Below, piece after piece: positions 2 to 52,037 of a DNA stretch of 64,000 nucleotides. The notes under the pieces were generated by a model. That model did no database searches. It saw nothing but the letters and a program-made list of their open reading frames with translations, and had not been told where the DNA came from. The stretch is from Thermaerobacter marianensis DSM 12885 (GTDB taxonomy: Bacteria; Bacillota; Sulfobacillia; Thermaerobacterales; Thermaerobacteraceae): NCBI RefSeq assembly GCF_000184705.1, contig NC_014831.1:1240001-1304000 (forward strand). The letters run 5' to 3'. How positions within the stretch are numbered: the stretch's first letter is position 1; every line of letters begins with the position of its first letter. A program made the position numbers and the translations under genes.

Positions 2-1327
<1,326 letters not shown>

Positions 1328-49265: not shown

Positions 49266-50060
49266 ATGACGCCGGTGGACGCGGGGGACGAACCGTCCGG
49301 GCGCGACGGCCCGGCGGGCATGGCGGGCGCCGGAGGCGGGCCCGAGGGGGAACCGGTGGCCGCTGACGGGACCGGCGGGACGCCCGGTGGTGAAGAAGCC
49401 GTGGCTCGCGCCGTGCTGGACCAGGTGGTCCGCTGGCTGGCCGCACGGGCGCGGACGGAGCGGGAGATCCGCGACCGGTTGGGTCGCCGGCAGGTGCCGG
49501 AGGCGGTGGTGGAGCGGGTCCTGGAGCGGCTGCGCCGCTGGGGATACGTGGACGACCGGCGGCTGGCCGGGGACATGGCAGAGGGTGCGCGGGCTCGTGG
49601 GATCGGACCCCGCCGGCTGCGGGCGGACCTGGCCCGGCGGGGTGTGCCGGATGCCCTTGCCGACGAGGCGGTGCGGGCCGCATGGCCGCCCGGTTCCCAG
49701 TGGGACGCGGCGTGGGAGCTGGCCCGCCGGCGGTGGGCGCGCCTGATGGCGGCGCAGGCCGGAAGCGTTGTGCCGCAGGGGGACGAAGGGAAGGACGGGG
49801 TGGAGGCCGCGGAAGGCGGGGAAGGCGGGCAGGCCGGATCCGGAGCCGGCGGCGGGGCCGAGGGGGGTGGGCCGGAGGAGTCCGACGGGTGCGGCGGGCT
49901 GGCGAGGCATCGGGCTCCGGGCCGGTTCGCGGGGGATGCCGGCGGGCGGCGCCGGGCGGCGGGGCGGCTTTACCGGTATTTGTTAGGCCGGGGGTTCAGC
50001 CCCGACGTCGTCCGGGACGTGGTCCGGCGGTTGGCGGGGGACGAAATCGTGGAAGACTAG
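49266..50060 (+). CDS. recX: RecA regulator RecX
   Basis: Small helical protein that binds and modulates RecA filaments. 264 residues; three-helix repeats are visible in VLDQVVRWLAARARTEREIRDRLGRRQVPEAVVERVLERLRRWGYVDDRRLAGDMAEGARARGIGPRRLRADLARRGV and in the last block LYRYLLGRGFSPDVVRDVVRRLAGDE. The repeats are interrupted by a 60-residue Gly/Glu-rich insertion and preceded by about 45 low-complexity residues, so it is longer than usual. ATG 49266 lies nine bases after recA with GAAGAGGAG overlapping the recA end. Cotranscription with recA is near certain. Confidence 0.9.
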   Translation: MTPVDAGDEPSGRDGPAGMAGAGGGPEGEPVAADGTGGTPGGEEAVARAVLDQVVRWLAARARTEREIRDRLGRRQVPEAVVERVLERLRRWGYVDDRRLAGDMAEGARARGIGPRRLRADLARRGVPDALADEAVRAAWPPGSQWDAAWELARRRWARLMAAQAGSVVPQGDEGKDGVEAAEGGEGGQAGSGAGGGAEGGGPEESDGCGGLARHRAPGRFAGDAGGRRRAAGRLYRYLLGRGFSPDVVRDVVRRLAGDEIVED

Positions 50061-50217: not shown

Positions 50218-50247
50218 TTGACATGGCTTTCTTGCAACCTCTAGAAT
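50218..50247 (+). promoter_or_regulatory. SigA-type promoter of rny
   Basis: TTGACA (50218-50223), 18-base spacer, TAGAAT (50242-50247). A perfect -35 with five of six -10 bases: the best consensus promoter in the window. The predicted start near 50254 gives a leader of about 240 nt before the rny ATG. Confidence 0.8.
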
Positions 50248-50258
50248 GAAATAACGGG

Positions 50259-50315
50259 ATGACTCGAAAACGCGACCACGATTACGCCTTTTGGCGAAAA
50301 AACAGCGACAAATGA
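50259..50315 (+). CDS. Possible 18-residue leader peptide in the rny leader
   Basis: ATG-to-TGA frame encoding MTRKRDHDYAFWRKNSDK, starting about five bases after the predicted transcript start. Rich in charged and aromatic residues, no stable fold expected. There is no Shine-Dalgarno, so translation would have to be leaderless. Its codons fall in the AT-rich island where random short frames are likelier; it is reported because of its position ahead of an internal terminator. Confidence 0.25.
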   Translation: MTRKRDHDYAFWRKNSDK

Positions 50316-50364
50316 TGAAAACACGACGAATTCCGGGTATGACGATGAATGGATTGCTGGTCCC

Positions 50365-50443
50365 CGTCCCGGTCCCGGGAAGGTCCGGGACGAGCGTAAG
50401 AGTGGTCAGCGCGCCGAGCCGGGTCCCCGAACTCGGCTTTTTT
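50365..50443 (+). terminator. Intrinsic terminator and competing stems inside the rny leader
   Basis: GCCGAG (50413-50418) pairs with CTCGGC (50432-50437), followed by TTTTTT: a terminator about 50 bases before rny. Just upstream two overlapping stems share one 3' arm: CGTCCCGG (50365-50372) or GTCCCGG (50372-50378) can pair with CCGGGAC(G) at 50385-50392. Such layouts are typical of attenuators or of a short terminated RNA. Confidence 0.6.
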
Positions 50444-50492
50444 GTTAAGGGGCCCGCGGGACCGCTGGGCGTGGGCCGAGGGAGTGAAAGGG

Positions 50493-52037
50493 ATGGTTTC
50501 GACAGTCGTCGTGGTCCTCATCGTCCTCGTTACCATCGTGATCGCCGGGGCGGCGGGCTATGTGATCCGAAAGCTGGTGGCCGAGAGCCGGATTGGCTCC
50601 GCCGAATCCCTGGCCCGGCAGCTCATCGAGGAAGGGCGGAAGGAAGGGGAGGCGCGCAAGCGCGAGGCGCTGCTCGAGGCGAAGGAAGAGGTGCACCGGC
50701 TGCGCACCGAATTCGAGCGGGAGAGCCGGGAGCGGCGGCAGGAGCTCCAGCAGCTGGAGCGGCGCCTGCTGCAGCGGGAGGAGGCCCTGGAACGGCGGGC
50801 GCGCCAGCTGGACGAGCGCGAGGAGTTGATGCGCGTCCGCGAGCGTGACCTGGACCGGGCGGAGGAGCTGGTCGAGGAACTGCGGCTCCGGCAGATGACG
50901 GAGCTGGAGCGCATCGCCGGCCTCAGCCGGGACGAGGCGCGGGAGCTCCTGATGAACCAGGTCCAGCAGGAGATGCGGCACGACCTGGCGGTGATGATCC
51001 GCCAGATGGAGGAAGAAGCCCGGGCGGAGGCGGACCGGCGGGCGCGGGAGATCATCGCCAATGCCGTGCAGCGGCTGGCGGCCGAGTACGTGCCCGAGCT
51101 CACCGTGTCCGTGGTGGAGCTGCCCGGCGACGAGATGAAGGGGCGCATCATTGGCCGGGAGGGGCGGAACATCCGCCACTTCGAGGCCCTGACCGGCGTC
51201 GACTTGATCATCGACGACACGCCGGAGGCGGTGGTGATCTCCTGCTTCGACCCCATCCGCCGGGAGATCGCCCGCATCACCCTGGAGAAGCTGATCGCCG
51301 ACGGCCGCATCCACCCCGCCAAGATCGAGGAGATGTACGCCAAGGCGGTCCAGGAGATGGAGGAGCGGATCCGCGAGGAGGGCGAGCGGGCCTGCTACGA
51401 GGTGGGGGTCCACAACCTGCACCCCGAGCTGGTCAAGCTGCTGGGCCGGCTGGCCTTCCGGACCAGCTACGGTCAGAACATCCTCCAGCACTCCATCGAG
51501 GTGGCGCACCTCTGCGGCCTGATGGCCTACGAGCTGGGGGCCGACGTCAACGTGGCGCGGCGGGCCGGCCTGCTGCACGACATCGGCAAGGCCCTGGACC
51601 ACGAGATGGAGGGCACCCACCTTACCATTGGCATGGAGCTCTTGCAGAAGTATCATGAATCGGAAGAAGTCATCCATGCCATGTCCTGTCATCACGGGGA
51701 CTTCGAGGCCAAGACCATCGAGGCGGTGATCGTCACCGCAGCCGACGCCCTGTCGGCGGCGCGGCCCGGCGCCCGGCGGGAGACGCTGGAGGCGTACATC
51801 CGCCGGCTGCGCCAGCTGGAGGAGATCGCCTCCAGCTTCCCCGGCGTGGCGAAGGCCTACGCCATCCAGGCGGGCCGCGAGGTGCGGATCATGGTCCACC
51901 CCGACCAGGTGGACGACGCCGAGGCGTACCTGCTGGCGCGGCAGATCGCCAAGCGCATCGAGCAGGAGCTGCAGTACCCGGGCCAGATCAAGGTGACGCT
52001 GATCCGGGAGACGAGGGTGACCGAGTACGCGCGGTAG
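50493..52037 (+). CDS. rny: Ribonuclease Y
   Basis: Membrane-anchored endoribonuclease that starts decay of many mRNAs and is a hub of the RNA degradation complex with RNase J and PNPase. 514 residues (Bacillus 520). N-terminal span [21 protein letters not shown], a long coiled coil (about residues 35-190), a KH domain with [29 protein letters not shown], and an HD domain [16 protein letters not shown]...[16 protein letters not shown] (His362, Asp363). ATG 50493 is preceded by GGAG at good spacing. Its own strong promoter and a terminator-bearing leader lie upstream. Confidence 0.97.

Follow-up and report, generated by a model that had tools for sequence, protein, structure and literature searches.

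The untranslated leader of rny, the RNase Y gene of Thermaerobacter marianensis, is probably a cis-acting transcription attenuator of that gene, with feedback by RNase Y as its most likely trigger. Computation finds in it a promoter, a helix that joins its two ends (P1), an intrinsic terminator, a pairing that excludes the terminator, conservation beside rny and a near balance of the two resulting states. The best reading of the sequence comparisons is that such an attenuator precedes rny in many families of the phylum, and on this model bacteria probably ration RNase Y by a terminator/antiterminator RNA switch. In many Gram-positive bacteria mRNA decay is initiated by RNase Y. As far as could be found, control of its amount is known only for Bacillus subtilis, where it works by mRNA cleavage; a switch at the level of transcription, conserved before rny across many families, would be a second, older route of control. 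It would also add an RNA family missing from Rfam, and the question can be tested with simple reporters.

Layout of the leader and its conservation in Thermaerobacteraceae

The window is a 64-kb stretch of the T. marianensis genome, and the parts of the leader and rny lie on its forward strand. rny (50493-52037; TIGR03319 RNase_Y, 761 bits against a cut-off of 454) starts with the ATG at 50493, preceded by a Shine-Dalgarno region, GAGGGAGUGAAAGGG (50478-50492), that is conserved in relatives. recA and recX are located upstream of the leader; in RecX the conserved parts are separated by a long low-complexity insert rich in Gly and Glu (window 49755-49905). The promoter scan places a sigma-A type promoter, TTGACA-18-TAGAAT, at 50218-50247, with hexamers at 50218-50223 and 50242-50247. 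The first-pass annotation had called this the best promoter of the window, and it is indeed the sole 11/12 sigma-70-type match on both strands of the whole 64 kb. The second-best promoter-like site, TTGGCA-17-TATCAT (10/12, 51628-51656), lies within the rny coding sequence, and the scan found none in the window between the terminator and rny. With transcription predicted to start at about 50254, the leader would be some 239 nt long. Its early part had been described as unusually AT-rich, which agrees with the composition: the 100 bp from 50221 have a GC content of 0.43 against 0.746 for the whole window, are its lowest-GC 100 bp and form its only island at a GC of 0.47 or below.

Within the leader, P1 is formed by a 5' strand CGC-GACCAC (50271-50279) and a 3' strand GUGGUC-A-GCG (50402-50411), the latter immediately 5' of the terminator; folding and family comparison agree on it, and it is kept in all five genomes of the family. 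An upper extension, UUACGC (50282-50287), pairs with 50394-50399 in T. marianensis and is partly kept in congeners. P1 encloses a stretch within the AT-rich island (50288-50358) that by composition is A-rich, GA-rich and weakly structured; GA dinucleotides number 15 in 50254-50365 against 9.5 expected (p 0.01), and over all leaders GA enrichment is not significant (mean z 0.1). Further on, a G+C-rich hairpin, GUCCCGG/CCGGGAC, is predicted at 50366-50391; in congeners it shows one-sided changes only, with G-U pairs. The terminator scan then reports a GCCGAG...CUCGGC stem followed by UUUUUU at 50413-50443, 49 nt from the ATG and so between the promoter and the first codon, where an intrinsic terminator about 50 bases before rny had been noted.

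The two competing stems suggested earlier also have a counterpart in the predicted pairings. Outside P1, a 5' antiterminator strand made of GGGAU (50256-50260) and CUCG (50263-50266) can pair with the terminator 5' arm and loop (50415-50418 and 50423-50427), as GGGAU..CUCG/CGAG..GUCCC, with nine of nine pairs in all five Thermaerobacteraceae. The same strand has an alternative fold as a small hairpin, CGGG-AUGA-CUCG, at 50255-50266. This mutually exclusive antiterminator helix is conserved, the window's own copy taken alone being no better than simple shuffles: by simple duplex energy it does not exceed shuffled 5' ends (p 0.2-0.6). The folding energy of the whole leader is likewise not below that of shuffles (z -0.36), so the case rests on conservation and alternative pairing and not on folding energy alone.

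Three congeners and one further genome of the same family keep both promoter hexamers in a near-identical promoter. Common to the same four are a 5' block, GGGAU..CUCGAAAACGCG(A/G)CCAC, a second block, GGUCCCCG, and a 3' block, GUGGUCAGCG..CCGAGCCGGGUCCC..ACUCGGCUUUUUUGUU. Antiterminator and P1 together form 18 of 18 pairs in five of five family members. Inside the genus nearly all of these pairs are invariant and no covariation was found, the sequence being too conserved to vary; comparison at this level therefore neither proves nor disproves the pairing.

The upstream region of rny across the phylum

The survey covered 110 rny upstream regions; 50 belong to the class of T. marianensis and the remaining 60 to other classes in the phylum. 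Counting terminators within 260 nt 5' of rny, an intrinsic terminator precedes the gene at 91 of the 110 loci; dinucleotide-shuffled versions of these regions lead one to expect 10.2. At 82 of the 91 loci a promoter scoring 10/12 or better lies within 400 nt upstream of the terminator, and at one a promoter lies between the terminator and rny. The median length from start to terminator is 160 nt in the rny leaders sampled. The terminator itself is distinctive, since its 5' arm contains CCGAG at 61 of 91 rny loci; among 130 other terminators from comparable regions only 2 have it, and one of these is an rny terminator that had slipped into the controls. Many members of the phylum share a 5' end resembling GGGAGAAACUAGG as well as a CUACCA/UGGUAG core of P1, after which an AUAGAU motif follows; this motif is absent from Thermaerobacter. 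The order of promoter, P1 and terminator is thus kept before rny across the phylum, in support of the attenuator proposed in the first-pass annotation.

Not every leader is built at full length. Reduced rny leaders, with about 40-90 nt from the promoter to a CCGAG-type terminator, are seen at L088, L106, L087, L121, L128, L131, L081 and L111. They have no room for a large sensor domain, yet the terminator sequence is retained, and lineages such as L088, L106 and L121 suggest that some leaders can do without a large sensor. At L109 and L116 (family f91) a GGCCGAGA..UCUCGGCC terminator lies 150-250 nt or more before rny and is followed by a long second untranslated stretch. The scan detected no terminator at 19 of the 110 loci (e.g. 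L086, L094, L096, L097, L101, L107, L135, L137 and L138); in at least one of them, L047, a terminator-like GGCCGAGUC...GACUCGGCC hairpin was overlooked by the scan. Loci without a terminator would permit a before/after comparison of rny control. A gapped DNA pattern run over genome contigs returned 15 loci, among which L027 is the only real homologue, with the same match position as in G004; the others are taken as chance matches. No relatives of rny were found in viral contigs.

Exclusive pairing and the balance of the two states

When the divergent leaders were aligned with MAFFT and folded with RNAalifold, only the terminator was recovered, and a permutation of pairing partners was therefore used instead. 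The duplex energy of each leader's own segments was compared with that of duplexes whose partners had been swapped between genomes matched for GC, using 49 leaders after removal of near-duplicates and 5000 permutations. For P1 the first 60 nt were set against the 32 nt before the terminator, and for the antiterminator the first 32 nt against the terminator 5' arm. The P1 duplex has an observed energy of -23.0 against -17.3 for permuted partners (z -10.5, 0 of 5000 permutations as good), and the pairing of the extreme 5' end with the terminator 5' arm gives z -5.3, again 0 of 5000. Of the two control segments, the leader middle gives z 0.0, and the terminator 3' arm shows some signal too (z -2.8). 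An earlier pairing test confined to the class agreed with this result. Antiterminator pairings can also be read directly in individual leaders, e.g. GACUUGGCUU/AAGCCGAGUC in L050, GGGACUUGG/CCGAGUCCC in L038, GAAACU-GG/CC-AGUUUC in L079 and GGCUUUUGUAC/GUACAAAAGCC in L062.

In a covariance model of 14 members, 8 of 18 pairs show changes on both sides, and the covariation score of 0.259 exceeds both that of shuffles (0.155 +- 0.019) and that with partners slid (at most 0.101). Its P1 core was chosen partly by complementarity, and for that reason the case is rested on the permutation test. Covariation of the stems, which the first-pass annotation had named as the check on its proposal, is thus missing within the genus, where the helices are invariant, and present across the phylum in both the permutation tests and the covariance model.

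Energies of the two states were obtained by folding each leader with the terminator either forbidden or forced. Over 67 leaders the median difference between the states is 0.6 kcal/mol, and in 66 of the 67 the first 45 nt make at least four pairs with the terminator. Among the 49 non-redundant leaders the median of antiterminator minus terminator is -0.1 kcal/mol. Shuffling only the first 24 nt shifts the mean to about +5.4 kcal/mol (paired Wilcoxon p 1e-10), and swapping terminators between leaders to about +4.7 kcal/mol (p 2e-8). For leaders of the window's own family the preference changes with temperature: at 37 C it is for the terminator state (+2.2 to +3.6), at 75 C, where the energies are extrapolated, for the antiterminator state (-1.5 to -3.3). 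By the same extrapolated energies the antiterminator state is the minimum free energy structure of the window leader at 75 C, the growth optimum of T. marianensis (PMC3035304). That P1 and the antiterminator beat GC-matched permutations, and that the two states are balanced, lends the attenuator further weight.

A strong promoter, a terminator that polymerase cannot avoid and a competing helix tuned to that terminator indicate conditional termination, and we infer that termination and read-through do occur and are regulated. Transcription would start at the strong promoter, and the two ends of the leader would pair as P1, closing a large domain. The first nucleotides of the transcript, left outside P1, could then pair with the terminator's 5' arm and loop, so that the antiterminator forms and rny is transcribed. 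Should the terminator form instead, a short RNA of about 190 nt would be released and rny would stay off.

Candidate triggers and alternative explanations

Negative feedback by RNase Y is our tentative choice of trigger, at somewhat less than an even chance. It is put first because B. subtilis RNase Y represses itself through its own AU-rich 5' UTR, a 164-nt leader that it cuts (PMC10303841), and because this enzyme prefers GA at its cleavage sites, in RNA that is unstructured and poor in GC (PMC11780869). In the attenuator, cutting or binding of the exposed AU-rich, GA-containing loop by RNase Y would disrupt P1 and the antiterminator, to the advantage of the terminator; when the enzyme is scarce, P1 would stay intact and rny would be transcribed. 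Against such feedback, polymerase may already have cleared the terminator by the time RNase Y, being membrane-bound, can act, and against attenuation by a large sensor in general, the leaders of some lineages are too short to hold one. Control could instead lie with a metabolite aptamer, or with a protein recognising the conserved terminator arm. A wider and more doubtful reading makes the leader part of an ancient, phylum-wide RNA thermostat of decay, in which it would sense RNase Y activity or RNA load and set termination or read-through of rny accordingly, the sensing taking place during the leader's own transcription. If this were true, no conserved terminator/antiterminator switch would, to our knowledge, have been described before for a ribonuclease that initiates decay.

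The AT-rich loop with its GA excess in the window could also be accommodated by purely post-transcriptional autoregulation, in which RNase Y, by targeting the leader, sets the stability of rny mRNA, as in B. subtilis, and the terminator is weak and unregulated. RNase Y-dependent control of its own leader has been demonstrated only for B. subtilis rny, which shares with Thermaerobacter the gene, a nearby sigma-A promoter and a long AU-rich leader, and whose expression is lowered by RNase Y activity via cleavage and RNase J1 decay (PMC10303841). The description of that UTR mentions no terminator, antiterminator or hairpin (PMC10303841), whereas in Thermaerobacter a terminator stands between promoter and gene. 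Stability control would leave unexplained the terminators at 91 of 110 loci, their conserved 5' arm and the energy balance, and is considered unlikely as a full account. The E. coli rne 5' UTR (rne5 of Rfam) is likewise the structured leader of a main decay-initiating RNase and serves RNase E autoregulation, likely feedback being common to both leaders; it works through RNase E binding and mRNA decay, with no terminator/antiterminator choice (PMC10303841), and rne5 has no match in the Thermaerobacter rny leader.

Riboswitch and T-box leaders resemble the rny leader in having a P1-closed 5' domain followed by a mutually exclusive antiterminator and terminator. This layout of aptamer, P1 and terminator suggests a metabolite riboswitch, whose aptamer would be the P1-enclosed domain with its (C)GGGUUU..AUAGAU motif, setting the stability of P1 and through it termination. 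AUAGA does occur at +20..130 in 37 of 67 leaders, where 8.3 would be expected, and a P2-like CGGGU/ACCCG pairing is present in some members (L119, L083). However, the motif is absent from Thermaerobacter, from other genera and from the reduced leaders, the domain is very variable in length, and rny is the sole gene controlled, with no metabolic theme. The rny leader also differs from these systems in that it lacks a conserved aptamer of a known class, that its gene encodes an RNase, and that the 5' strand of its antiterminator is the very start of the transcript, outside P1. Rfam 15 at its gathering cut-off has no match in the window, in 20 loci of the class or in 20 loci of other classes, in line with the earlier remark that no known riboswitch is recognised; relaxed thresholds gave weak sub-threshold matches only, none of them a riboswitch or leader family. 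A riboswitch is thus improbable. Phrase searches of the open (CC-BY) literature found no rny motif, leader or riboswitch, and rny is not mentioned in the main text of the candidate-motif surveys consulted, so that the RNA family before rny is absent from Rfam 15 and from the literature searched. The 3' parts of two leaders (L119 341-418, L123 368-455) are weakly like the sRNAs SorX/SorY (about 21 bits, E 0.16-1.8, sub-threshold), a likeness probably due just to the terminator hairpin.

The strong promoter and strong terminator, the structured product of about 190 nt that P1 would close like a rod, and the conserved CCGAG terminator sequence would equally fit a stand-alone trans-acting sRNA ending at the terminator, with rny reached by constitutive leaky read-through only. 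A covariance model (R1) searched over 199 genomes of the phylum bears on this point. It gave matches in 113 genomes and, in genomes with a located rny, 44 of 53 matches at E<=1e-3 lie on the same strand immediately 5' of rny (about 11 of the 44 being in its training set). Two strong matches elsewhere (L153, L157) are plain terminators, and a trans-acting RNA would need no 5' end that balances its own terminator. These placements favour a cis element and leave an sRNA quite unlikely as the main function; the alternative raised in the first-pass annotation, a separate RNA of about 190 nt with read-through, fares better as a by-product of attenuation, and the short RNA could have a second role. 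R1 finds the window itself weakly (14.3 bits, E 0.17, its 5' part in the wrong register), because other classes supplied most of the model and the AUAGAU motif is missing from Thermaerobacter.

Attenuation by a leader peptide, read from a short ORF at 50259 (MTRKRDHDYAFWRKNSDK), was rejected as next to impossible: an ATG does stand just after the transcript start in G000 (T. marianensis), G001, G002 and G004, but it is lost in G003 (ATC), peptide length and sequence differ, and there is no Shine-Dalgarno sequence. 6S RNA, which is likewise about 190 nt long with a strong promoter and a closing stem from both ends, was rejected as well. RF00013 has no match at the rny leader, and the 6S RNA of T. 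marianensis, a further point against a trans-acting role, is encoded elsewhere in the genome (G000 C1:1478422-1478608, minus strand, 83 bits). Two 6S RNAs are present in one genome of the class (G019).
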